DNA of 35,054 bases from Acidobacteriaceae bacterium (GTDB lineage Bacteria > Acidobacteriota > Terriglobia > Terriglobales > Acidobacteriaceae): the NCBI GenBank assembly GCA_003152695.1, contig PMAT01000090.1, positions 15,712 to 50,765 of the forward strand, read 5' to 3'. Within the stretch, counting starts at the first letter, position 1. Every line of letters starts with the position of its first letter. The notes beneath the pieces were generated by a model, which searched no databases, was not told where the DNA came from, and was given only the letters and a program-made list of their open reading frames with translations. Both the position numbers and the translations under genes were made by a program. This document shows positions 248 through 19,677 of the stretch, in pieces.

Positions 248-1324
248 ATGAACAGCAAACGCGCCACTATCATATTTCTTTCCGTGCTGTTGCTGATTGC
301 GCTCGGGCTCACGTTTGTCATTACCAGGTCCTTCCTGGAGCCGTTCGCCTTCGCGATCATTCTTGCGGTCGTCTTTTATCCAATGCACGAACGCATTCTG
401 CAACGGAACCACCGGCGGCCCGGCAGTTCCGCGCTGCTTTCCACGCTGCTCCTGGTCCTGCTGTTTGCGGTGCCGAGCTTCATCATTGCGGTGCTGGCAG
501 CCAACGAAGCGCTGGTGGCGGCGCATTACCTGAGTCGCAGAAGCTTCGAAGAGGGCGGATTCGCATCGCTGGTAATGACCCTGGCTAAGGGCCCTCTCAG
601 CTATGTTGGCCGCTGGGTCGACCTTTCCAAATACGATCTGAACGACATGATCAGCGCCAACACGCAGAAGGTCAGTGTGTGGCTGGTCGGCTTTGGCGCC
701 AGCGTCTTGGGTGGTATCGCGCGCTTCGTCATCGGCGCGCTGATCACGTTCGTGGTCGTGTTCTTTCTGTTTCGTGACGGCGCGCAGTGGGCGTATCGCG
801 CGGGGGCGCTGCTTCCACTGTCTCGCGAGCAGGTGGTGCGGCTGTATCGCAATATCTCCGACACCATCATCGCCAATGTTTACGGCATCCTCTCGGTGGG
901 GGTGGCGCAGGGCACGCTGGTCGGAGTCGCTCTACGCCTCATGGGCATGCAGTCTTCCCTGTTGCTGGGTTTGGCTACCGGTTTTGCTTCCATCATTCCA
1001 GTAGTGGGCTCGGCGCTGATTTGGGTCCCGGTCGTGATTTACCTGCTGGCAACCGGTTCCATTGCGAAGGGCGTGTTTTTTCTGGTTTATTGTGTCGTGA
1101 TCGTCAGCAGCGTCGACAACATCCTCCGCCCGTGGATTGTGGGTGGGCGCGTGGAGTTACATCCGCTGGTCCTGCTCTTCTTTATCTTCGGCGGCGTGGA
1201 AGCGTTCGGGTTCCTGGGATTGTTTCTGGGGCCGGTGGTGGCGTCAGTTCTGGTGGCGCTGTTCGACATTCTGCGCGAAGAACTGAAGGAGGCCAAAACC
1301 TTGCCCGCGGCGGGCGATGCGTGA
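248..1324 (+). CDS. AI-2E family (PerM-like) membrane permease
   Basis: The product has 358 residues, close to the usual 340-370 for the AI-2E/PerM transporter family. Paired N-terminal helices (about residues 8-45) and a helix near 65-85 are followed by a soluble stretch. A C-terminal block of hydrophobic segments contains the family-typical FFLFRDG (about 172-178) and several Gly/Pro-rich helices such as GLATGFASIIPVVGSALIW. The protein should lie in the inner membrane; members export small molecules or ions, and the substrate cannot be told from sequence. The ATG at 248 precedes the first helix; the ribosome site is weak. The gene converges with the monooxygenase gene, with only four bases between their stops and no clear terminator. 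Confidence 0.9.
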   Translation: MNSKRATIIFLSVLLLIALGLTFVITRSFLEPFAFAIILAVVFYPMHERILQRNHRRPGSSALLSTLLLVLLFAVPSFIIAVLAANEALVAAHYLSRRSFEEGGFASLVMTLAKGPLSYVGRWVDLSKYDLNDMISANTQKVSVWLVGFGASVLGGIARFVIGALITFVVVFFLFRDGAQWAYRAGALLPLSREQVVRLYRNISDTIIANVYGILSVGVAQGTLVGVALRLMGMQSSLLLGLATGFASIIPVVGSALIWVPVVIYLLATGSIAKGVFFLVYCVVIVSSVDNILRPWIVGGRVELHPLVLLFFIFGGVEAFGFLGLFLGPVVASVLVALFDILREELKEAKTLPAAGDA

Positions 1325-1328
1325 CGCG

Positions 1329-1622
1329 CTACTCGCCGGAAAGCGGAGTATACGACTCGCCTTCTTTGCGTTCTCCGATGTCCTTCAGCGCAGCGATCGC
1401 GTACTGCTGAAAATGCGCGGATTCGCGATGGGCCTCCAGAGCGGTCTCGTCGCGATACTGCTCGTAGATGAAGAATCGCGTGGCGTCCGTTCGGTGCCGA
1501 TGCACGATGTACATCAGGCAGCCCGGCTCTTGCCGCGAAGCGGTCTGAAGTTTGCCGAATATCCTGGCGACTTCGTCTTCATGCCCCGGGTTTGCCATCC
1601 AAGTCACGGCCAGTACGACCAT
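1329..1622 (-). CDS. YgiN-like antibiotic biosynthesis monooxygenase domain protein
   Basis: This 97-residue protein is the usual size of a single ABM-domain protein, a dimeric ferredoxin-like alpha-beta barrel. It starts VVLAVTWMANPGHEDEVARIF, has the central QEPGCLMYIVHRH, then FFIYEQYRDETALEAHRES, where the second strand and helix carry the EQY/ALEAH signature. Family members act on quinols or polyketides, or bind haem; the substrate here is unknown. It lies 27 bases downstream of purA on the same strand and may be read through from it. There is no sign of damage. Confidence 0.85.
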   Translation of the reverse strand: MVVLAVTWMANPGHEDEVARIFGKLQTASRQEPGCLMYIVHRHRTDATRFFIYEQYRDETALEAHRESAHFQQYAIAALKDIGERKEGESYTPLSGE

Positions 1623-1649
1623 TCCATCCTCCAGTTTGCGCCCTTGCTC

Positions 1650-2978
1650 CTATTCACTTTTCCCGCTGACGCTGTTCAGCGTTTTCGCGAACTCGGGAAT
1701 AAACATGGTCTGCTCGCGATCGGGGCCAGTCGAAACAATACCGACCTTCGCGCCCGATTCCTTCTCGACGAATTCCAAATATCGTTTCGCCTTCGCCGGC
1801 AACTGATCGTAGCTGTTCATGCCAAACGTGCGCGACTTCCAACCCGGCAGCTTGGCATAAACCGGCTCGATCTCCTCGTATCCTGACGCCTGCGCGGGAA
1901 TCTCCTGCGCTTCCTTCCCGTTAACCTTATAGCCGACGCAAATCGGGATCTCCGGCTGATCATCCAGCACGTCGAGCTTGGTCACGACCAGCCAACTGGT
2001 GCCATTGATCATGTTGGAATAGCGCAGCAGCGGCAAGTCCAGCCAGCCGGTCCGACGCGGACGTCCGGTTACGGCGCCGAACTCGTTGCCTTTCTTGCGC
2101 AGCGCCTCGCCGACCTCCTCTTTCAGTTCGGTGGGGAACGGCCCTCCGCCCACGCGCGTGCAGTAGGCCTTGGTTACGCCGATCACCATGTTGATTGCCG
2201 TCGGGGGCACGCCCGTGCCGGTCACCGCTCCTCCGGATGTCGCGCTGGACGAGGTGACGAACGGATAGGTTCCGTGATCGATGTCGAGCATGGTGCCTTG
2301 CGCGCCTTCGAACATCACCGACTCGCCATTGGCGATGGCGCGGTTCAGCAGCAGCGCAGTGTCGGTCACGAAAGGAGCGACGCGGTCGGCGATCTCCGCA
2401 TAGTCGGTGAACATCTTGTCGGGATCCAAAGGCTCGCTGTTGAACAGGGCATGCGCGATGGTGTTCTTCTCGCGGCAGGCGTTCTCAATGTGCTTCTTCA
2501 GCAGGGTCTTGTCGAGCAGGTCCTGCACACGCAATCCGCTGCGCGCCATCTTGTCTTCGTAAGTGGGCCCGATACCGCGCGAAGTGGTGCCGATCTTCAC
2601 GCGCCCGGGAGCGTTCTCCGATGCCAGCTCAATCATGCGGTGGTAGGGAAGGATCACGTGCGCGCGGTTACTGACAAACAGATTGCCGTCAACATGCACG
2701 CCGGTCGCGCGCAGCGCATCCACTTCCTTCATGAAGGCGAAGGGATCGAGCACCACCCCATTGCCGATCACGCCGCGGCATCCCTCGCGCAGCACGCCGC
2801 AGGGTATGAGCTGAAGGATGAACTTCTTGCCCTTGATGGTGACCGTGTGTCCGGCATTGTGGCCGCCCGAATAGCGCGCGACTACATTGAAGCGCTCGGA
2901 GAGAACGTCAACGATCTTGCCTTTACCTTCGTCGCCCCATTGCGCGCCGACAATTACTGCTGTCTTGCCAGTTTTCAA
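1650..2978 (-). CDS. purA: adenylosuccinate synthetase
   Basis: It makes adenylosuccinate from IMP, aspartate and GTP, the first committed step from IMP to AMP. The N-terminus has the GTP-binding VGAQWGDEGKGKIVD loop, followed by YSGGHNAGHT, then GTTSRGIGPTYEDK, FEGAQGTMLDIDHGTYPFVTS and the C-terminal KLDVLD block, so the catalytic parts are complete. I chose the TTG at 2978 because GGAG sits seven bases upstream and the product then begins (M)KTGKTAVIVG. An ATG at 3008 would add ten unconserved residues and has no ribosome site. The length of 442 residues is normal (about 430). The gene is divergent from mutM. Confidence 0.97.
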   Translation of the reverse strand: MKTGKTAVIVGAQWGDEGKGKIVDVLSERFNVVARYSGGHNAGHTVTIKGKKFILQLIPCGVLREGCRGVIGNGVVLDPFAFMKEVDALRATGVHVDGNLFVSNRAHVILPYHRMIELASENAPGRVKIGTTSRGIGPTYEDKMARSGLRVQDLLDKTLLKKHIENACREKNTIAHALFNSEPLDPDKMFTDYAEIADRVAPFVTDTALLLNRAIANGESVMFEGAQGTMLDIDHGTYPFVTSSSATSGGAVTGTGVPPTAINMVIGVTKAYCTRVGGGPFPTELKEEVGEALRKKGNEFGAVTGRPRRTGWLDLPLLRYSNMINGTSWLVVTKLDVLDDQPEIPICVGYKVNGKEAQEIPAQASGYEEIEPVYAKLPGWKSRTFGMNSYDQLPAKAKRYLEFVEKESGAKVGIVSTGPDREQTMFIPEFAKTLNSVSGKSE

Positions 2979-3254
2979 CTTCGTACTCCATTTGCGGACG
3001 CCCGGCATCGAGCGCGAACGGCCGCGCAGATTCGCACACAGCTCGCCTCTGGATTGCGAAACCGGATCAGAATTCGGGGAAGTTTAGGGAGACGAACCGC
3101 GTACTCTTGATTTTACAGGGTGGACTAAAGATGGTGCAATGCACAGGCGATAGGCAGACCCGCCTTAGCCAAAGGATCGCTGGAACGGGGCACCCCGGTC
3201 TTGTGCATCTTCTAGAATGCCCGCTCTGCCCGAATCGCCGTACACTAACAGTCT

Positions 3255-4106
3255 ATGCCCGAACTCCCCGAGGTCGAAACTGTTGCCCGCGGACTGAACC
3301 AGCGGATCGCTGGCGATGTGATCGACTCGGTCTGGCTGGGAGAAAAGCCTGAACCGCTGAAATCGCCTGCCGCCGAGATCGCGTCCGTGCTGGAGCATCA
3401 TCGAATCGTACAAGTGCGGCGCGTGGGCAAGCATATTGTTTTCGATTTGCAGCGTGCCCGACGGAACTCGTCGAGAAAACCGGCTGCCATTGACGGGCAA
3501 TGGATTGTGCACCTCGGAATGACTGGCCGCCTGCTGATCGCGTCTCCAGAAATGGAAACGGCCAAGCATACTCACGCCGTGTTGAAGCTGGCCTCGGGAT
3601 GGGAACTGCGGTTTGTCGATCCCCGGCGCTTTGGCCGCCTTGCGGTGGTTCGAATCGAACCGAAGAGCACCGCCGGCTTTGCCGCGCCCGGCGATGAGCC
3701 GCTAAAGTCGCTGATCGGGCCATTCATGGCTCTGTTTCGCGGACGCAAAACTCCCATCAAGAGCGCATTGCTGAACCAGAAGCTGTTAAGCGGGGTGGGA
3801 AACATTTATGCTGACGAGTCGCTGTTTCGCGCCGGAATTCGGCCGCGCAGGCGAGCGGCGTCGCTCACCCGCGCTGAGCTGCAAAGACTGCACGTCGCGC
3901 TGAAGGCGGTGCTGCGCGAGGCGATCAAGCTGGGCGGGTCGTCGGTCAACGATTACGTCGATGCCGAAGGCCACGAAGGATTCTTTCAACTGCGGCATCG
4001 CGTGTATGGCAGAGAGGGCGAGTCCTGCCTGGTATGCGGTGCCGCCATCAAGCGGGTTATCATCGCAGGACGCAGCAGTCATTATTGTTCGCGCTGTCAG
4101 AAGTAG
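3255..4106 (+). CDS. mutM: formamidopyrimidine-DNA glycosylase (Fpg/MutM)
   Basis: This is a base-excision repair enzyme that removes oxidised purines such as 8-oxoguanine and nicks the strand. The N-terminus is MPELPEVETVARGL, with catalytic Pro2 (Schiff base) and Glu3. The conserved VGKHIVFDL lysine segment, HLGMTGRL and the helix-two-turn-helix LLSGVGNIYADESLF follow. The last 25 residues form the zinc finger with CLVC and CSRC pairs. At 283 residues it is full length. It lies 37 bases upstream of the ROK kinase on the same strand. Confidence 0.97.
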   Translation: MPELPEVETVARGLNQRIAGDVIDSVWLGEKPEPLKSPAAEIASVLEHHRIVQVRRVGKHIVFDLQRARRNSSRKPAAIDGQWIVHLGMTGRLLIASPEMETAKHTHAVLKLASGWELRFVDPRRFGRLAVVRIEPKSTAGFAAPGDEPLKSLIGPFMALFRGRKTPIKSALLNQKLLSGVGNIYADESLFRAGIRPRRRAASLTRAELQRLHVALKAVLREAIKLGGSSVNDYVDAEGHEGFFQLRHRVYGREGESCLVCGAAIKRVIIAGRSSHYCSRCQK

Positions 4107-4143
4107 AGCGGTGTAGTTAGCGAGAGGAGCCGTGAGGTTGCAC

Positions 4144-5169
4144 ATGGGCGTGTATTCCATCGGAGTTGATCTGGGCGGCACCAACCTGCGCATCGCCGCG
4201 GTCGATACCGACGGCAAACTGCTGGAGAAGCTGACCACCGGAACCGAGGTAGGCCGTGGGCGCGACTGGGTCATCGGCGAAATGTGCGATGCCATTCAGT
4301 CGTTAAAGGTGAAGTATCGCAACTTGGGGCAACTGGCGGGAATCGGCATCGGGGTCCCCGGATTCATCGACATGGATACCGGCACCGTCATGCAATCGCC
4401 CAACCTCCCCGACTGGGCGAACTTTCCGGTGCGCGATGAGATTCAGCGCCGGCTGGGAACGCCGGTGATTCTGGAGAACGATGCCAACTCCGCTGCCATG
4501 GGAGAAAAATGGCTGGGCGCCGGCCGCGATACCGACCACATGGCCATGTACACACTGGGCACCGGGGTGGGAGGCGGCTTGGTGCTGAATGGACGTCTCT
4601 GGCATGGCATGAACGGCATGGCCGGAGAGCTCGGCCACTTCTGCGTCGAACCAGACGGGCATCCCTGCGGTTGTGGAAGCCGGGGCTGCCTTGAGCAGTA
4701 CGCTTCCGCGACGGCCATCGTGCGCATGGCGCATGAGGCGATCGCCAGCGGACAGGCGGACGATCTGGCACGGGCCACACGCGGCAATGTCGAGTTCAAT
4801 TCGCGGGTCATCTACCAGTTGGCCATTCAAGGCGACGTGTCGGCGCAGCGGATCTATCAAAAGGCGGGACGCGCGTTGGGTATTGGCATCGGTAGTATGG
4901 TCAACGCGCTGAATCTACCGATGTACGTGATCGGTGGCGGAGTGGCCAGTGCGTGGGACGCTTTCGCGCCCACCATGTTCGACGAGTTGAGACTTCGCTC
5001 CTTCATCTACAAGGTCACGGCCCCCGATGGCGCTATGGCGGGAAAGAAGCACACCATTGTCACGCAGGCCTTGATGGGCAGTGATGCCGGACTCTACGGC
5101 GCAGCCCGATTGCCTATGCTAGCATCGCTGACACAAACGGAGCCAACCCGCAGCCAGCAATTTTCCTAG
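4144..5169 (+). CDS. ROK-family sugar kinase, probable glucokinase
   Basis: It probably phosphorylates glucose or a related hexose with ATP in the cytoplasm. The N-terminal phosphate loop is IGVDLGGTNLRIAAVD, the sugar-binding ENDANSAAMGE follows, then GTGVGGGLVLNG. The ROK zinc site is intact: GELGHFC then CGCGSRGCLEQYAS. I chose the ATG at 4144 (MGVYSIGVD), which has TGAGG six bases upstream. GTG at 4132 and TTG at 4138 would add three or four residues. The product is 341 residues, slightly longer than typical ROK glucokinases (about 320). It could be specific for another hexose. Confidence 0.9.
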   Translation: MGVYSIGVDLGGTNLRIAAVDTDGKLLEKLTTGTEVGRGRDWVIGEMCDAIQSLKVKYRNLGQLAGIGIGVPGFIDMDTGTVMQSPNLPDWANFPVRDEIQRRLGTPVILENDANSAAMGEKWLGAGRDTDHMAMYTLGTGVGGGLVLNGRLWHGMNGMAGELGHFCVEPDGHPCGCGSRGCLEQYASATAIVRMAHEAIASGQADDLARATRGNVEFNSRVIYQLAIQGDVSAQRIYQKAGRALGIGIGSMVNALNLPMYVIGGGVASAWDAFAPTMFDELRLRSFIYKVTAPDGAMAGKKHTIVTQALMGSDAGLYGAARLPMLASLTQTEPTRSQQFS

Positions 5170-5435
5170 ATTCCCTTTGCGCCTTAAGATTATTTCGATG
5201 CCAGGCATAGCTGTAGTCGGTGCAGCCGCATGAGCCTGGTGTCGGACATGGAAATCCATCCACGGCTCAGCGATGAGTCATCCCTGAACTGATTCGCGCC
5301 ACTTAGGTGTGTAGGTTGCCGCAAAATTAACCTATTACAAGAAATTCGCTGGAGCAAAGTCAAGAGTTGTGGTTCATACTATTGCAACCGTCGAGGCTGC
5401 TATCAGCCCACTTCTCTTTTTTGCGGGGTGGTGTT

Positions 5436-5954
5436 GTGTCTCCTGAGCTGGAACATATCCGCCGTGAAGTGGAACGCATCACCAGTACCATGTCGCCGCA
5501 CGACTGGCGCTATGCTCCGCCACGGAAGTGGAGTTGCGCCCAAATTCTGGAACACCTTCTGTTGAGTTACACGGCCACTACCCAGGGGACCCAGACCGCC
5601 CTGCAAACGGGCAAGCCGCTGGGAGGCCAGCCTACGTTGAAGGACAAACTAGCGACCTTTTATGTGGCCAAAATGGGATTGCTTCCCAGCGGGCGGAGGG
5701 CGCCGAAGACGAGCTACCCGGCGAATGGTTCCGGCGTGGAGTCGTTGCGGCAATTCAATGACGCCCTGGTGGCCATGGATGCGACGCTGGCCAATGCGGA
5801 GAAACGATTCGGCAGGGTGGCCAAGATACTCGACCATCCGGTCCTCGGCCCCATGAATGCGAAAGACTGGCGCCGTTTCCATCACACCCATGCCCGGCAC
5901 CATCTCAAGCAAATCGAGAAGCGATTAAAGCAGGCCAGTTCTGGCCGCGCTTAA
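5436..5954 (+). CDS. DinB/DUF1569-like four-helix protein
   Basis: This is a helical protein of about 172 residues. The pattern is that of the DinB-like superfamily: an early helix (ELEHIRREVERI), WSCAQILEHLLLSY with a histidine, a middle region, then HHTHARHHLKQIEKRL near the C-terminus. The histidines in those helices usually form a metal site. These proteins are thiol-dependent or metal-dependent enzymes, or uncharacterised; no substrate can be inferred. The GTG at 5436 gives a product starting (M)SPELEHIRREVE. Earlier TTG codons (5367, 5382) would add an unconserved tail. It stands alone after a noncoding gap of about 260 bases. Confidence 0.7.
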   Translation: MSPELEHIRREVERITSTMSPHDWRYAPPRKWSCAQILEHLLLSYTATTQGTQTALQTGKPLGGQPTLKDKLATFYVAKMGLLPSGRRAPKTSYPANGSGVESLRQFNDALVAMDATLANAEKRFGRVAKILDHPVLGPMNAKDWRRFHHTHARHHLKQIEKRLKQASSGRA

Positions 5955-6044
5955 CCGATCCGCAATAGCTAGAGCGAGAGTGGCTGCAGCTTGGGTAGTG
6001 CCCGCGCTACCCGTACCAGCGGATGCACCAATCCTGGAACCGCT

Positions 6045-6932
6045 TTAGAAAGAACTCAGATACCAGCGCCATATTGACTCGCCAAAAAAAACTGCGGCCA
6101 GAGAACACGCGCCCAGAAATACGCCGAACGGCAGTTCCTGCGCCAGAAACCTTTCTCGAGCAGAAGATTGCCCGGCCAGCGCTTCGCCCACCTCCGGTGT
6201 CTTGCGGAAACGCCCCGCGAGCAGCAGGAAGGCAGCATAAACGGTGGCCGCCAACGGCGCGGTGAAAATCACAAAGAGCGTGAGCTTCAGCCCCAGAAAC
6301 GCTCCCACCAGGGCTATGAGTGCAATATCGCCGAATCCCAATCCGTGACGTTTGCGAAGCAGGTAGTACAACGCCCACGCCAGGTAGAAGAAGCCGGCGC
6401 CAAGCAGAGCAGCGATGGCGGAGTCGAGCAGCGCCAGTTGAGCATGAGTCGGACGCTGCGCGCCGTACGCGCGCAGAAAAAATTGTGTTGCGGCGCTATC
6501 GGCCGGGGCGAACCAGGAGAGCGCCAGTCCCAGCACGATTCCGGAATAGGTGAATTCCCGCGGCAGCAGGCCCGTCTCCGCATCCATGAAAATCAGTCCC
6601 ACCAGCAGGAAACAAAAGAGGCAGAGTTTTGCCGTCGCCAGCGTCGGACCGAATGACAGGTAGCACGCGGTGAACAACACGGCGGTCAGCAACTCGACGG
6701 CGGGATAACGCAGTGAAATTGGCGCTCCGCAAGCGCGGCAGCGGCGGCGCAGTAGCAGCCAGCTTAACAACGGAATATTGTCGTGCCAGCGCAGAAAAGC
6801 GCCGCACGCCGGGCAGTGCGACCTGGGGCGGATGACGGACTCATCGCGGGGAAGGCGGCTGATGCAGACATTCAGGAAACTGCCCAATGCCAGCCCCACG
6901 ACGAACAGCGCGCATTCGATAGCTAGGTCCAA
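6045..6932 (-). CDS. type IV prepilin peptidase / N-methyltransferase (A24)
   Basis: An inner-membrane aspartic protease that cleaves the leader of type IV pilins and pseudopilins. The N-terminal half carries the cytoplasmic zinc motif of two CxxC pairs (Cys40/43 and Cys65/68). The catalytic aspartates lie in FMDAETGLLP (about Asp117) and GFGDIAL (about Asp202). The hydrophobic helices fit the eight-helix PilD/GspO fold, and 295 residues is normal. The DAETG and GFGDIA variants differ slightly from the classic motifs but keep both Asp. It lies 22 bases downstream of the glycosyltransferase on the same strand, probably one transcript. Confidence 0.93.
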   Translation of the reverse strand: MDLAIECALFVVGLALGSFLNVCISRLPRDESVIRPRSHCPACGAFLRWHDNIPLLSWLLLRRRCRACGAPISLRYPAVELLTAVLFTACYLSFGPTLATAKLCLFCFLLVGLIFMDAETGLLPREFTYSGIVLGLALSWFAPADSAATQFFLRAYGAQRPTHAQLALLDSAIAALLGAGFFYLAWALYYLLRKRHGLGFGDIALIALVGAFLGLKLTLFVIFTAPLAATVYAAFLLLAGRFRKTPEVGEALAGQSSARERFLAQELPFGVFLGACSLAAVFFGESIWRWYLSSF

Positions 6933-14773: not shown

Positions 14774-15044
14774 TTAGCTTCGTAACACCAGAATGGATCC
14801 AAAGTGGCGACGCGGGCGACCACATTCTCAATTCGCGGCACGTTCCTTAAATAAGATGCTCGTGCCGACCTCAGTGATGCACGCGGCACGGCTGCCCAAG
14901 CGCCACTGTGACTTGTTTATTTATTTTGCAGTTGGCGGCGTAAGGCGGCGTAAGGCGGTTTTTGGCGGTTCTTATCGCCTCAAAATTCGACGAAACGCGA
15001 CCTTGTTTGTTCGGAATTGGTTTGCAGTGTCGCGTGATCGGACG
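14774..15044. other. intergenic region left of the insertion, no gene seen
   Basis: No supported gene lies here. It holds a short imperfect 10-bp tandem repeat and presumably the promoter of the leftward beta-propeller gene. The possible short frames on both strands give no recognisable protein. Confidence 0.6.
14931..14970. repeat. four imperfect 10-bp tandem repeats
   Basis: Units GTTGGCGGCG, TAAGGCGGCG, TAAGGCGGTT and TTTGGCGGTT follow each other without gaps, and each shares a GGCGG core. The period equals one turn of DNA, so the cores lie on one helix face. Confidence 0.7.
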
Positions 15045-15052
15045 CTTGTAAC
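15045..15052. repeat. left target-site duplication (8 bp)
   Basis: CTTGTAAC directly precedes the left inverted repeat and is repeated exactly at 18080-18087 after the right one. Eight bases is the duplication length known for the IS1595 family. Confidence 0.93.
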
Positions 15053-15083
15053 GGCAATAAAACGCTTGACACACATGTGTTCG
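15053..15083 (+). repeat. left terminal inverted repeat of the IS1595 element
   Basis: The repeat starts GGCAATAAAACGCTTGACAC and ends CATGTGTTCG. It matches the right end with four mismatches (positions 5, 13, 19 and 29). It contains the -35 box of the transposase promoter and a 10-bp palindrome ACACATGTGT at 15071-15080. Confidence 0.93.
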
Positions 15084-15094
15084 TAGTGTACTAT
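15066..15094 (+). promoter_or_regulatory. sigma70-type promoter of the transposase
   Basis: TTGACA (15066-15071), a 17-base spacer and TACTAT (15089-15094) make a near-consensus promoter eight bases before the transposase ATG. The -35 box lies inside the terminal repeat, so transposase binding could repress it. Transcripts would have a very short leader. Confidence 0.78.
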
Positions 15095-15101
15095 TCTAGG
15101 C

Positions 15102-16124
15102 ATGGAACGCCTCAAGACTTTGCAAGGTGCAATCGCCTACTTCAGCGAGCCGCAACAGGCTTTTGATGCCGCCGTCCAGTTCCGCTGGCCCGGCGGGAAT
15201 GTAACGTGTCCGCGCTGTGGAGAAGCCAAGCATTCGTTTATTAAGACGCGGCGCTTGTGGTTCTGCTACGTATGCCAGAAGCAGTTCACCGTCAAGGTGG
15301 GAACCATCATGGAAGATTCGCCGCTTGGACTGGACAAGTGGATGACGGCGCTTTGGCTGTTGGCGAACTGCAAGAACGGGATCAGTAGCTATGAACTCGG
15401 CAAGGCTCTCGGCATCCGGCAGAACTCGGCATGGTTCATGCTTCACAGAATCCGCGAAGCTATGAAGGATGATCGTAGCTTTAAGTTCGGCGGGGAAGAT
15501 GGCGGGCCAGTAGAAAGTGACGAAACCTTTGTCGGCCCGAATCCATACAAGATGCACAGGAACCGGAAGAACACATTGCGCCAGCGTCGCGGACAGGAAA
15601 TGCGTGGGGATAACTACCTCGGCAAAACGATAGTATTTGGAGTGCTTGATCGTGAACTGCGACAGGTGCGCTCGAAGGTCATTCCGAACGTCAAGCGGGA
15701 GACTTTGCAAAACGAAATTCTCAAGAACGTTCACTATGGCAGTAAGGTCTACACTGATGCCGCTGTTGGCTACGATCATTTCAGCAAAGAGTTTGTCCAC
15801 GAAGTCGTCAACCATGCAGTGGAGTACGTCAAGGGGCAAGTACACACGCAGGGATTGGACAACTTCTGGTCGCTCCTTAAGCGGACGTTGCGTGGAACCT
15901 ACGTTGCTGTTGAACCGTTCCATCTTGACCATTACCTTGACGAACAGGTGTTTCGTTATAACAACCGTGCGACGAAAGACAATCCGTTAAACGATTCCGA
16001 CCGCTTCGCCTACCTCATGTCCAAAGTGGCGGGGAAGCGACTCACCTATGCCCAACTGACGGGCAAGGGAGTTGACTCGCTCCACCATTCGGCGGCAGCA
16101 CAGGGGCAAGAGGAGCCGTTTTAA
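15102..16124 (+). CDS. IS1595-family (ISXO2-like) transposase
   Basis: The 340-residue protein has an N-terminal zinc ribbon (Cys36/Cys39 CPRC and Cys55/Cys58 CYVC), a helical DNA-binding region, and the ISXO2-like DDE-type domain. Catalytic residues fit DDN: Asp140 in VESDETFVG, Asp219 in VYTDAAVGYDHF and Asn254 in TQGLDNFWSLLKR. It should move the element by cut and paste. No frameshift or internal stop is present. The ATG at 15102 has only a weak AGG close by; translation may be leaderless or low. Its TAA overlaps the stop of the antisense 47-codon gene. Confidence 0.96.
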   Translation: MERLKTLQGAIAYFSEPQQAFDAAVQFRWPGGNVTCPRCGEAKHSFIKTRRLWFCYVCQKQFTVKVGTIMEDSPLGLDKWMTALWLLANCKNGISSYELGKALGIRQNSAWFMLHRIREAMKDDRSFKFGGEDGGPVESDETFVGPNPYKMHRNRKNTLRQRRGQEMRGDNYLGKTIVFGVLDRELRQVRSKVIPNVKRETLQNEILKNVHYGSKVYTDAAVGYDHFSKEFVHEVVNHAVEYVKGQVHTQGLDNFWSLLKRTLRGTYVAVEPFHLDHYLDEQVFRYNNRATKDNPLNDSDRFAYLMSKVAGKRLTYAQLTGKGVDSLHHSAAAQGQEEPF

Positions 16125-16264
16125 CCCTTGTTCTTGCCGGATGCTTTGCGGGCGGTAGCTTTCTTGGGCTGCCGCTTTTTCTGCGCTTTGGCCCGAAAAA
16201 CAGCCTTCGCCAGCCGTTCAAAGTTTTCTCTTGCTTCTTGGCCTTCTTTGTATTCTGCTTTCAT
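16121..16264 (-). CDS. small basic protein (47 aa) of the IS1595 element
   Basis: An open frame runs from ATG at 16262-16264 to TAA at 16121-16123, with GGAG eight bases upstream. The protein starts MKAEYKEGQEARENFERLAKAVF and ends in a lysine/arginine-rich tail (KKRQPKKATARKASGKNKG). The EGxxAxxNFE(R)xxKAxF start resembles short proteins seen beside IS1595-type transposases in other genomes (from memory, not searched). The basic tail suggests nucleic-acid binding. Its stop overlaps that of the transposase in the shared palindrome TTAA, so the two genes are convergent by design. It is below common length cut-offs and easily missed. Confidence 0.75.
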   Translation of the reverse strand: MKAEYKEGQEARENFERLAKAVFRAKAQKKRQPKKATARKASGKNKG

Positions 16265-16357
16265 TTCCTGTACTCCGTAATTCCCTTATACGCCACAACC
16301 CAGAGGGCGATAACCTCGATGATCAGTAATGCGCTTAACACACGAAGGGAGAGGGGC

Positions 16358-17089
16358 ATGTCAGATATTTCGTCTCTGACTTCGCAAGTCCAACAACTCG
16401 GCCAATCAGTGGACTTTTGGGGAGTTGCGGTCAACGTGCTTTTGATGTTTACCGCTCTCGTCACCGTCTTGTATATCGGCTCAACGCTTCGCCAAAGCAC
16501 AGTCGCCAAGAAGCTACGCACTGCACAGGAACTATTACTCCAAGCTAAAGATCGCCAACTTTCTACTGACTTACGTGACAAGGATGTTGAGATCGCGGGA
16601 CTTAAAAAAACTACCGAAGACGAGCGATCAGCCAGGGTGAAGATAGAGGCAGCAGTTGAGTGGCGTTCACTTTCAAAGAAGCAACAGGAACGACTAGCTA
16701 CGCAACTATCGCGCTTCTCGTCGCAGAACTGCCTTGTGGTATTTATGGCCAACGATTTGGAATCATCTAACTTCGCAGATGATATTGTTTCTGCGCTGCA
16801 AAAAGCCCACTGGAAGCTTCCTGAACCCTTAGAAATGATGATGATGCGGGAAGGACCCTCCCCAATCTGGACCCACAAGCGGCTGGAAAACGGTATGGCC
16901 GTTTTGAGCACCGGAGATACAAGCAGCCGCGAGTCCGCCTCAGTATTTGTTGATAAACTCAACAAACTGGGATTCGATACGGAAAAATTACCGATGCTAG
17001 ACAAGAGCCCCATCCCCCGCGTAGAGATTTGGGTGTACCACCGACCTAAGGGGCCGCAAGGCGAAGCCAAACTAGCAAGACACAAGTAG
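16358..17089 (+). CDS. passenger gene 1: single-helix membrane protein with coiled coil
   Basis: The 243-residue product has one membrane helix (about residues 20-41, WGVAVNVLLMFTALVTVLYI), a charged coiled coil (about 45-115), and a C-terminal globular domain (about 116-225: LSRFSSQNCLVVFMANDLES, FADDIVSALQKAHWKL, SASVFVDKLNKLGF, VEIWVYHRP). The last part looks like an alpha/beta domain as in uncharacterised membrane proteins, and no enzyme motif is seen. The ATG at 16358 follows GAGAGGGG closely; an earlier frame start would add 40 residues and cross the divergent small gene's promoter region. It lies eight bases upstream of passenger gene 2. Function unknown. Confidence 0.75.
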   Translation: MSDISSLTSQVQQLGQSVDFWGVAVNVLLMFTALVTVLYIGSTLRQSTVAKKLRTAQELLLQAKDRQLSTDLRDKDVEIAGLKKTTEDERSARVKIEAAVEWRSLSKKQQERLATQLSRFSSQNCLVVFMANDLESSNFADDIVSALQKAHWKLPEPLEMMMMREGPSPIWTHKRLENGMAVLSTGDTSSRESASVFVDKLNKLGFDTEKLPMLDKSPIPRVEIWVYHRPKGPQGEAKLARHK

Positions 17090-17097
17090 GTAGGCTC

Positions 17098-18018
17098 ATG
17101 GACATCATCACTCAGCGGTTCATAGCGATTGGCAACAAACTCCTCGCGGAGTTGCGGCGCATTGGGGATGCGCTCCGTATCCTGCACACTGACAGCCAGC
17201 AGCAGATTGAAACCATAAGCAAAGCCAATGATGCCGCAGAGAAGCGCCGCCAAGCCCCACCAATGCCAAGGCCCGAGCTTGAAATTCCACAGCCCGAAAA
17301 ACATCAACAGCAACGAGCTAATGCAGAGAAGAAGTGGCTTGAGCGCGGCAAGATTCTGCTCGAAGTGCTCACCTTGGCTGCTATTGTCGTCTATGCGATT
17401 TATGCCTGTCGCCAGTGGATAACGATGAACAATACCTACAAGGAAATTCAGCAGCAAACTTCCCCGTGGGGTCAAAAACCGTTCGTAGATTTGTCCAGCG
17501 CCACTGTGTTCAAACCACCAACCGACAAAGGGGGTATTGCCATGGTTGTCTTGTCGTTCACTAACCGAGGCAGAACGCCAGCCAAAAACGTCAGGGTAGT
17601 AACGCACATGGCTATTCGCCAAGCAGGATCGCAACCATGTCCACCCTCCGTCAGCGCCTTCCCCGCAAACGGGCCTACCTATCCCTCCGACACCCCTCAA
17701 AAGCTCCTTGAGCGAATACAGATAACTCCCGCCCAACTTGAAGCCTACAAGAGCGGCACGGCTAGGCTTTACGTATGGGGAAGGTTTATGTACCTGGATT
17801 TTTGGCTCTTTAGAAACCCTGATTCCAATCCTCGTACTAGCATTTTCTGCCGTTCCTTCGGAATTGAAGACGAGCAGATTATGCGAATGACTCCCGCTCC
17901 CGATGGGGCTTCGATAATGAGTCCATGCACTGCTTCCGAATGGCCATTCGATGACCTGACCGGAGACCAGTGGGACAAGTATGAAGCCTGCAACCAGAAG
18001 GAAAAAGGCAAACAATAG
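17098..18018 (+). CDS. passenger gene 2: membrane protein with coiled coil and outer domain
   Basis: The 306-residue protein starts with a helical, Gln/Lys-rich cytoplasmic part (about residues 1-85, coiled coil and Pro-rich stretch). It has one helix (about 86-104, ILLEVLTLAAIVVYAIYA) and then a soluble beta-rich domain (about 125-290) with VVLSFTNRGRTPAKNVRV, which has the NxGxxPAxNV pattern of an immunoglobulin-like fold. Similar unnamed proteins are frequent in mobile DNA. The last codons reach 61 bases from the end of the transposon. It is probably co-transcribed with passenger gene 1. No function can be assigned. Confidence 0.75.
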   Translation: MDIITQRFIAIGNKLLAELRRIGDALRILHTDSQQQIETISKANDAAEKRRQAPPMPRPELEIPQPEKHQQQRANAEKKWLERGKILLEVLTLAAIVVYAIYACRQWITMNNTYKEIQQQTSPWGQKPFVDLSSATVFKPPTDKGGIAMVVLSFTNRGRTPAKNVRVVTHMAIRQAGSQPCPPSVSAFPANGPTYPSDTPQKLLERIQITPAQLEAYKSGTARLYVWGRFMYLDFWLFRNPDSNPRTSIFCRSFGIEDEQIMRMTPAPDGASIMSPCTASEWPFDDLTGDQWDKYEACNQKEKGKQ

Positions 18019-18048
18019 CCCTGTCACGGCGAGCCAAGTGTCCCATTT

Positions 18049-18079
18049 CGGACACATGTGCGTCAACCGTTTTAATGCC
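18049..18079 (-). repeat. right terminal inverted repeat of the IS1595 element
   Basis: Read on the minus strand it begins GGCATTAAAACGGTTGACGC and ends CATGTGTCCG. Just inside is a 6-bp hairpin, GTGTCC (18038-18043) with GGACAC (18050-18055). Confidence 0.93.
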
Positions 18080-18087
18080 CTTGTAAC
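18080..18087. repeat. right target-site duplication (8 bp)
   Basis: CTTGTAAC is identical to 15045-15052. Joining the two flanks at this sequence restores an intergenic empty site between the beta-propeller and clc genes. Confidence 0.93.
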
Positions 18088-18108
18088 TGACTGATTCTTC
18101 GTGAGTGG

Positions 18109-19677
18109 TCAGGGTTTTCGTACACTTCTCGCGAACCTATAGCTGGTAGCCAGGCCAGAATCCAGTAACCTATTTAACCTAAGTAACTTAAACCCGTGGC
18201 CGTTGCCCTGCTGAATCAAATGCTGAAGCTCATGCCGCGGAACGACGCCAACCAGTTTCCGCTCGTGATCGACCACGGGATAAAGTTGTTGCCGCCGCCG
18301 GCTTTGTCCATCATGCAACGACTTGGCCAGGTCGGCGACCGTAGTGTCGGCGGGAATCGCCGCGATGTTCGACCGCATGACCTCCCGCACAAACAGGATC
18401 TCCAGCGGATCCACCGAGTATTCGCGGCTCAGGTGGTAGCCCCGGCGCGCTACCTTTTCCGTCAGGATGGAACGCTTCAAGGTCAGAACTGTGAAGCCAT
18501 GTGCGACCACCGACGCCAGCAGCAGGGGAAGAATGACGTTGATGTCGTGAGTCAGTTCCACCGCGAACACTACACCGGTGAGGGGTGAGCGCATGGTCCC
18601 TCCCAGAATCGCGCCCATGGCGATCAAAGGCCAGAAACCCATTCCTTCATTGGGCAAGAACGCGCTCAGCAGACCGCCCAATGCGCCGCCCATCATGAGC
18701 AGCGGAGCCAGAACGCCGCCCGATGTCCCGGAACCCAGAGATACCGCCCACATGACTGACTTCACCAGCAGGATACCGGCAATGGTTGTCAGCAACACGT
18801 GCCCTTGTAGCAACGATCCAATTGTGTCGTAGCCGACGCCCAACGCCTGTGGGAAGATCAATCCACCAACGCCCACGACGAAGCCGCCGATGATCGGCCA
18901 CCACATCCAGTGAATGGGCAGCTTGACGAAAGCGTCTTCCGCCGCGTACACCGCCAGAGTCAGTAGCGCCGACAGCGCGCCCGCCAAAATTCCTACGAGT
19001 ACACAGCCCAGTAGTCCAGCAGGTCCGATGAACGCAGCGTGAGGAGGCGTGGGGAACAAAGGTTCCATGCCAATGATGTAGCGGCGTGTCGCTGCCGCCG
19101 CGGCACTGGCTAACGCGACTGGAATCAGGCTGCGTGGCTTCCACTCGAAAAGCAGCAACTCGACTGACAGCAGAACCGCCGCTAACGGTGAAGCAAACGT
19201 CGCCGACATTCCTGCAGCAGCGCCTGCTACCAACAACGTTCTGCGCCCTATGCTGGTCAGATGGAAGAGCTGCGCGATTAAGGAACCAAACGCGCCGCCC
19301 GTCATGATAATCGGTCCCTCAGCTCCGAAAGGTCCACCCGAGCCAATGGAGATGGCCGATGAAATCGGCTTCAGAATAGCCACCCGGGGCTCGATCTTGC
19401 CCCCCTTCAGCAGAATGGCTTCAATGGCTTCCGGGATGCCGTGACCGCGGATACGCTCCGAGCCGTAGCGCGCCATGACACCGACGATGAGACCGCCGAC
19501 CATCGGCACAATAACTTCCAGCCAGCCGAGGTGATTGCCCGCGGGAGAAACAAGCGCAGTGCCCCAGCGCTGATAGAAGAACAGGTTAGTGAAAATTCCA
19601 ATCAGCCGCAGCAGGGCGAGAGCGATGAACGCGCTGAAGATCCCGATGCCGATCGCCAGCAAGGTGATCGGTATCAC
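18109..19677 (-). CDS. ClC-family chloride channel/transporter with C-terminal CBS region
   Basis: A multi-helix ClC protein of at least 522 residues. Family motifs are present: GSGGPFGAEGP (a GxEGP variant with Ala), SIGSGGPFGAEGPIIMTGGA, and GSGTSGGVLAPLLMMGGALGG (the GxFxP position is GGVLAP). A CBS motif follows (VREVMRSNIAAIPADTTVADL ... LYPVVDHERKLVGVV), but the second CBS half is missing and the tail is unconserved. The first usual start in frame is GTG at 19677, just before helix B. Conserved-looking residues (DRKNHDEHELGDFTTTSR) are encoded in frame upstream to about 19770 without an ATG, GTG or TTG. It follows marR on the same strand. Confidence 0.92.
   Translation of the reverse strand: MIPITLLAIGIGIFSAFIALALLRLIGIFTNLFFYQRWGTALVSPAGNHLGWLEVIVPMVGGLIVGVMARYGSERIRGHGIPEAIEAILLKGGKIEPRVAILKPISSAISIGSGGPFGAEGPIIMTGGAFGSLIAQLFHLTSIGRRTLLVAGAAAGMSATFASPLAAVLLSVELLLFEWKPRSLIPVALASAAAAATRRYIIGMEPLFPTPPHAAFIGPAGLLGCVLVGILAGALSALLTLAVYAAEDAFVKLPIHWMWWPIIGGFVVGVGGLIFPQALGVGYDTIGSLLQGHVLLTTIAGILLVKSVMWAVSLGSGTSGGVLAPLLMMGGALGGLLSAFLPNEGMGFWPLIAMGAILGGTMRSPLTGVVFAVELTHDINVILPLLLASVVAHGFTVLTLKRSILTEKVARRGYHLSREYSVDPLEILFVREVMRSNIAAIPADTTVADLAKSLHDGQSRRRQQLYPVVDHERKLVGVVPRHELQHLIQQGNGHGFKLLRLNRLLDSGLATSYRFARSVRKP

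Follow-up and report, generated by a model that had tools for sequence, protein, structure and literature searches.

A complete cargo-bearing IS1595-family element in an Acidobacteriaceae genome, with a conserved core and changing cargo

The 35,054-nt stretch analysed here, hereafter the window, belongs to contig PMAT01000090.1 of an Acidobacteriaceae bacterium (assembly GCA_003152695.1) and contains, at positions 15053–18079, a complete cargo-bearing insertion sequence (IS) of the IS1595 family. Its 3,027 bp contain a transposase gene, a small gene convergent with it and the cargo genes c1 and c2. Its features, in window coordinates, are as follows.

15045..15052, no strand: left 8-bp target duplication, CTTGTAAC, present as a single copy in uninterrupted copies of the surrounding repeat (as CTCGTAAC in locus L115)
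15053..15083, + strand: left terminal inverted repeat, 31 bp, GGCAATAAAACGCTTGACACACATGTGTTCG, matching the right end at 27/31 positions
15066..15094, + strand: promoter-like TTGACA-17 bp-TACTAT, beginning within the left end; 7 bp separate it from the transposase start codon
15102..16124, + strand: IS1595-family transposase, 340 amino acids, with a zinc ribbon and a DDN catalytic domain (NF033547, PF12762, PF12760)
16121..16264, − strand: 47-codon gene for a basic protein, convergent with the transposase gene, with a 4-bp stop–stop overlap
16358..17089, + strand: c1, 243 amino acids, with one predicted membrane segment (22–40), a long helix and a C-terminal alpha/beta domain
17098..18018, + strand: c2, 306 amino acids, with an N-terminal helix, one predicted membrane segment (86–104) and a beta-sandwich domain (about 125–258)
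18020..18030, − strand: subterminal motif GCCGTGACAGG (read on the − strand), from an alignment of right ends
18049..18079, − strand: right terminal inverted repeat, 31 bp, its complement agreeing with the left end at 27/31 positions
18080..18087, no strand: right 8-bp target duplication, CTTGTAAC, an exact copy of the left one

When joined across the element, the flanks match a dispersed repeat at 12 loci where nothing interrupts it; 11 of these lie in three congeneric genomes and one in the element's own genome (all among loci L115–L127, of which L117 is another gene). These are other copies of the repeat and not the orthologous site; the best is 83% identical over 261 bp and has a single CTCGTAAC at the junction. 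Because all 12 are uninterrupted, the 3,027-bp element is seen to have inserted as one unit into a dispersed repeat, duplicating 8 bp. An initial annotation of this DNA had already described the exact CTTGTAAC duplication on both sides and the 31-bp termini with 27 matches, and its view of the element as complete, once mobile and of the IS1595 family, with passengers inside, is borne out by the ends, the duplication, the transposase and the uninterrupted repeat copies; its span of 15045–18087 takes in both duplications, and the element proper is 15053–18079. Neither of two observations named there as telling against the element was seen: the 3 kb does not lie at the locus without a duplication, the site being interrupted relative to 12 repeat copies, and the ends of related elements do not exclude passengers, since relatives enclose extra DNA inside their ends. 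The further copies with the same ends and cargo that it proposed to look for did not appear: a DNA search of the element's own genome gave one full match, and the other five matches cover core stretches only. Element DNA was also unmatched in phage records at E 1e-5. A composite transposon was considered and rejected: the element has a single transposase gene, its short ends form the only long pair of terminal repeats, and no two IS copies flank the cargo.

The host repeat (window 14903–15052 plus 18080–18190) is dispersed and roughly 250 bp long, and the genus has at least 12 further copies of it. Beyond it, a chloride-channel-like gene region (labelled by eye) at window 18193–19660 has a second copy, 79% identical, at G000:C67:34088-35555.

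The transposase exceeds the curated cut-offs of the IS1595 models, with E 1.8e-51 and 175.1 bits against NF033547 (cut-off 75), 122.1 bits against PF12762 (cut-off 27) and 49.4 bits for the N-terminal zinc ribbon PF12760 (cut-off 25.4). Residues D140, D219, N254 and K260 are invariant among 37 aligned transposases, window included, confirming the DDN enzyme of the initial annotation. The transposase, c1, c2 and the small gene all show a gene-like base composition across codon positions. When spacings of 16–18 bp between TTGA.. and a −10-like hexamer were compared in the left ends, 17 bp was best in 41 of 42 elements and 18 in one; a −10-like hexamer matching at least 4/6 positions occurs in 36/42 left ends versus 6/42 right ends. 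The family pattern suggests that the transposase is expressed from a promoter starting inside the left end, probably as a near-leaderless transcript, and that the DDN enzyme would cut both ends and move everything between them.

To place the element among its relatives, we draw on 72 loci from a transposase search (71 from Acidobacteriota and one from Syntrophaceae by record title; loci are denoted L and genomes G), which together with three own-genome loci make 75 that were tested for ends. Of these 75 loci, 39 yielded ends with a duplication matching at 7/8 positions or better, compared with 5 of 375 tail-shuffled controls; in the other 36 no ends were found, partly because the contig stops. 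Including the window there are 40 bounded elements of 1,702–3,194 bp (L015 and L016 being the same insertion in two records), and the 39 relatives have 667–2330 bp downstream of the matched transposase region. The window's own genome holds three complete elements with differing duplications and cargo, namely that of the window, L002/L100 (ATTGTAAG) and L102 (CAAGTTTG). It also holds truncated sister remnants (L006 382–1548 and L004 1501–1557), both retaining the small-gene start and the former also a right end. The subterminal motif GCCGTGACAGG was derived from nine aligned right ends, those of eight closest-clade elements and one remnant, and is identical in five and differs by one mismatch in one.

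DNA similarity between elements ends near the start of the small gene. The closest relative of the window element has 79% transposase identity and no alignable cargo DNA, and a comparison with L007 gives 74% DNA identity over positions 1–1098 and none beyond. L027 and L031, from one metagenome-assembled genome, are 91.3% identical over 1–1268 and not alignable further, their cargo proteins sharing 27% identity over 164 residues. Among 755 element pairs with a blastn match (the identical pair L015/L016 set aside), one match longer than 60 bp ends past query position 1500, and it covers 61 bp at the right end. A conserved core is made up of the left end, the transposase and the small gene, and the remainder is replaced. 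What we call the cargo bay would extend from the small gene to the right end, with its content replaced much faster than the core diverges. L027 (4929–7448) and L031 (4929–7465) have nearly identical target duplications (CCGCTAAA and CCGCTAAC).

On a tree of 36 transposases, cargo type, as labelled by the analyst, changes at least 17 times, and the distribution of DUF3800 resembles a random one, with 9 changes for 10 rows against a shuffled mean of 9.0. The tRNA label of L042 reflects a peptide resemblance only, as ARAGORN and Rfam do not support a tRNA there. Because the 17 changes compare with a shuffled mean of 23.5 and a least possible number of 9, cargo is partly inherited and often changed.

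The initial annotation had named a 47-codon antisense gene; the gene is present and, instead of lying across the transposase gene, is convergent with it, the two overlapping by 4 bp at their stops. The three non-transposase genes it counted inside the ends are likewise all there, but in our reading only c1 and c2 are cargo and the small gene is part of the core. A frame on the opposite strand that ends over the transposase stop occurs in 31 of 37 elements and is the small gene in 27 of them; in L043, L049, L051 and L056 (4/31) it is a different frame. With a hidden Markov model (HMM) of the small protein, a relative was detected in 40/40 bounded elements, 39 opposite to the transposase and that of L051 on the transposase strand, and 27 of the 36 loci without found ends also gave a match. 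Because this HMM was trained on the same elements that it later counted, a second test was added on 100 whole genomes of the family, the window's own included and possibly other sources of alignment rows. The small gene is found at 82 places in 42 of these genomes; for 58 of the 82 a listed IS1595 match is no more than 3 kb away, against about 0.2% of them as a rough expectation from an even spread, and 53 of these 58 are on the opposite strand. The small gene marks a subgroup of IS1595 and not the whole family, because 58 of 150 listed IS1595 matches have one. The protein has no Pfam or NCBIfam family at cut-off and no match at E 0.1 in PADLOC or PHROGs; four further small proteins compared with Pfam gave one sub-threshold match (L054, PF24188, E 0.057) and, for the other three, nothing.

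We read the small gene as a constant component of the element core and not as random cargo, a point beyond what the initial annotation had seen. It stays with the core while the cargo varies, and we therefore regard service to the transposon itself as the most likely role of the basic protein, which might bind the ends or other DNA, or restrain the transposase through convergent transcription. Several points count against this placement. The training overlap of the HMM is one; its three weakest best matches (L015, L016 and L063) reach E 0.014–0.028 only, 24 of the 82 small-gene places have no listed IS1595 match as near as 3 kb, and the small gene is lacking at 92 of the 150 listed IS1595 matches. 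The strongest counter-evidence comes from elements with cargo on the same strand, in which the small gene is the downstream neighbour and, in three of the nine listed (L010, L050 and L062), shares 4 bp with the cargo, and from L102 and L051, where it comes after cargo genes on the + strand. In two alphaproteobacterial elements a series of PIN-toxin genes is closed by a small gene of unrelated sequence. These arrangements would suit a small gene that belongs to the cargo operon, for example as an antitoxin or immunity partner. However, it is kept alongside unrelated cargo types, it remains with the core in L027 and L031 where the cargo differs, and in the window it is transcribed away from the cargo, so that membership of a cargo operon appears unlikely, though not markedly so.

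The two membrane genes of the initial annotation are both present, each product having one predicted membrane segment, and c1 and c2, 8 bp apart, probably form a two-gene operon. Opposite them runs a long antisense frame, 16261–18066(−), and we considered whether this, and not c1 and c2, is the real cargo gene, the latter being its shadows. It is open for 601 codons and has a 599-codon counterpart at the same place in L091, 4006–5805(−), but its base composition is flat across codon positions (0.49, 0.49, 0.55), unlike that of the transposase, c1 and c2, Pfam gives no match to its protein at E 1, and the homologues of c1 and c2 lie on the + strand, c1 with codon-like substitution. We rule the frame out as a gene on its flat composition, the lack of a Pfam match and the + strand homologues, which leaves this alternative highly improbable; the antisense frames of the window and L091 are probably coding-bias shadows.

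Structure models of c1 and c2 have middling predicted local distance difference test (pLDDT) values of 69.3 and 68.5, respectively. A Foldseek search with the c2 model gave two PDB matches at E ≤0.001 (3but and 4c47), and a second structural comparison pointed to a common beta sandwich (best Z 8.6, root-mean-square deviation 3.2 over 106 residues, 9i25_C); from these predicted folds no specific relative of c2 appears to follow. The c2 sequence profile matched no PDB chain at E 0.1, and the c1 fold had no PDB match at E 0.001.

By profile, c2 relatives occur in 53 and c1 relatives in 29 of 299 genomes of the class. In tblastn searches at E 0.01, the fetched loci gave no match for c1 and two weak ones for c2, and plasmid records gave no c2 match at E 0.01. 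For each family 30 loci were fetched, two of the c1 loci coming from a single place in G006. The fetched flank contains an IS1595 transposase or small gene at 8/30 c2 loci and 4/30 c1 loci, the window counted in both, and an IS1-like transposase at 4/30 and 3/30, respectively; the c1 and c2 families thus occur repeatedly beside small transposons. Most sampled members, at 18/30 c2 and 23/30 c1 loci, have neither transposase in that flank. The c1 figure could be taken to mean that the window holds no unit at all, only an IS1595 copy beside unrelated chromosomal genes and then a similar inverted repeat by chance, but the exact duplication borders the outer ends and the surrounding repeat is uninterrupted in 12 other copies, and we give this account almost no credence.

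Genes of the c2 type are found in other IS1595 elements: that of G236 (L091 2793–5779, CTTATTTC) has two in tandem, and the cargo protein of L007 is a distant member of the family, with 17% identity in the alignment and no predicted membrane segment. The best c1 relative, 41% identical, lies in the unit at L093 with an IS1-like transposase. We did not find c1 and c2 side by side elsewhere; among the listed places, eight other genomes hold both families, and G045 is the only other one with both on one contig, about 4.2 kb apart.

The cargo of relatives includes DUF3800, HEPN, GmrSD/type IV restriction, RelA/SpoT and nucleotidyltransferase genes as well as tRNAs. A Pfam scan of 81 frames of at least 100 codons from 38 elements (some of them overlapping shadow frames; the identical L016 was excluded and L042 has no such frame) gave, at E 0.01, seven matches to DUF3800, two to GmrSD_N and one each to GmrSD_C, DUF6932, RelA_SpoT, HEPN, SIR2_2, NTP_transf_2, CUSTOS and Amphi-Trp. 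Among ten relatives' cargo proteins compared with PADLOC, five had no match; the strong matches were HEC-06 in L061 (2.7e-160), PDC-S33 in L043 (2.5e-97), NsnA in L019 (1.8e-30) and PDC-M63A in L051 (2.2e-23), the last with a weak PDC-M63B match (0.0011) adjoining.

Transfer RNA genes also lie inside some elements. That of L015/L016 (6382–6468; Rfam tRNA, 57.5 bits in L015) has a long variable arm and the anticodon UUA, which would decode the stop codon UAA; those of L063 (7134–7209, 46.3 bits) and L032 (6229–6305, 44.1 bits) have mispaired or odd anticodon arms. ARAGORN found no tRNA inside the window element, nor was there an Rfam tRNA match.

Taken together, we consider it likely that the element is a cargo-bearing, or transporter, IS of the IS1595 family with a fast-replaced cargo bay behind its core; the cargo may pay for its carriage by a function in host benefit or conflict, such as phage defence. 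The association with transposons and with the defence-like cargo of relatives would be consistent with a conflict or defence role for c1–c2. The cargo could instead consist of functionless, random hitchhikers, caught by the occasional surrogate right end of an otherwise ordinary IS1595 transporter IS. Cargo is indeed highly diverse among relatives, only two of ten cargo proteins scanned singly are above a Pfam cut-off (L039 HEPN and L049 DUF3800), and neither c1 nor c2 has a family at cut-off in Pfam or NCBIfam. Yet the same cargo families recur across separate transposase lineages, as the changes of DUF3800 on the tree illustrate, genes of the c2 family adjoin IS1595 parts in the 8/30 sampled loci and an IS1-like transposase in four more, and c1 is under coding constraint relative to L093 (identity by codon position 0.50, 0.62, 0.32). 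We hold random hitchhiking to be a serious contender, at somewhat less than even probability.

Other observations weigh against a fast-replaced bay of functional cargo. Cargo type is clustered on the transposase tree, with 0/200 shuffles as low as 17 changes, and cargo is not swapped freely; L015, L016, L032 and L042 have no frame above 110 codons downstream of the transposase region. The defence role of c1–c2 is one of association, with no direct library support: neither has a PADLOC (2023 library) or PHROG match at E 0.1, and only sub-threshold matches were obtained, to PF20068 (c1, E 0.0065) and NF040486 (c2, E 0.042). Finally, one insertion of the cargo-bearing unit was seen, with no second copy with the same cargo in its own genome or the fetched loci, and the c1–c2 unit is thus seen to have moved once.

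We tentatively extend the interpretation of a core with a cargo bay to the whole Acidobacteriota subgroup of IS1595. Its members may share a standard chassis of left end with promoter, transposase and convergent small gene, joined to an exchange bay of swapped conflict genes, with the small protein as a dedicated transposition or exchange factor. The bay would hold restriction, HEPN and toxin-like alarmone synthetase genes, nucleotidyltransferase pairs, membrane pairs such as c1–c2, and odd tRNAs, and it might be exchanged by recombination or by recruitment of a new right end. Our literature search, which did not take in the founding IS1595 paper, found no constant small gene, cargo set or cargo-bay pattern of this kind, and a prior description is possible. 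The usual picture of an IS element is that of a bare transposase; in this subgroup 40/40 bounded elements have additional DNA, together with a single kind of transposase and a constant helper-like gene, and the cargo of four relatives matches phage-defence models. Should the small gene prove to be a transposition or exchange factor, it would help to locate such elements in genomes without annotation and to test how immune genes are acquired, swapped and spread by small transposons. Uncharacterised cargo such as c1–c2 would be a candidate for conflict assays.

The IS1595 family, whose founding paper is reportedly that of Siguier, Gagnevin and Chandler in 2009, has DDE_Tnp_IS1595 and zinc-ribbon domains and an 8-bp duplication in common with the window element. 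Passages of PMC8101967 give an 8-bp target duplication and a single transposase gene as usual for the family and an N-terminal zinc ribbon for all its groups except IS1016, and state that the ends of the related Merlin elements start with GG, as do the ends of the window element. In contrast to the single gene usual in that source, the window element also carries c1, c2 and the constant small gene. These three further genes inside the ends depart from the single-gene trait and therefore place the element in the transporter IS (tIS) form, a kind already named in print. In extracts of PMC3129680, PMC7986276 and PMC12888890, a tIS is an IS with passenger genes unrelated to transposition, and the first two of these sources trace the term to the founding IS1595 paper. 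The window element shares with tIS the presence of passengers within the ends of an otherwise simple IS, c1 and c2 lying between ends that are bordered by the outer duplication. It differs in that tIS passengers are described for some members of a family only, for example 7/25 Pseudomonas IS66 members in the text available from PMC12888890, whereas here 40/40 bounded elements have the small gene and at least 0.6 kb past the transposase.

Two further kinds of element are comparable. IS1595 elements of alphaproteobacterial plasmids (L105 from Methylobacterium, 693–4105, and L109 from Roseomonas, 3918–6521) resemble the window element in having ends, an 8-bp duplication and cargo, the cargo of L105 and L109 comprising a hypothetical gene, a PIN/VapC-type toxin gene and a gene of 61–62 amino acids; of the eight plasmid loci looked at, four yielded ends, in one case with a 7/8 duplication. 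They differ in the transposase, at 34–42% identity, and the acidobacterial HMM does not match their small protein at E 10. The IS1-like unit L093 4519–6825 of G058, with the closest c1 relative, an 8-bp duplication (CGCCGGCA) and 17/20 matching ends, differs in having another transposase (PF03400 at E 3.6e-4, below cut-off), other ends and no small-gene match. The c1 passenger family lies there inside a second type of transposon.

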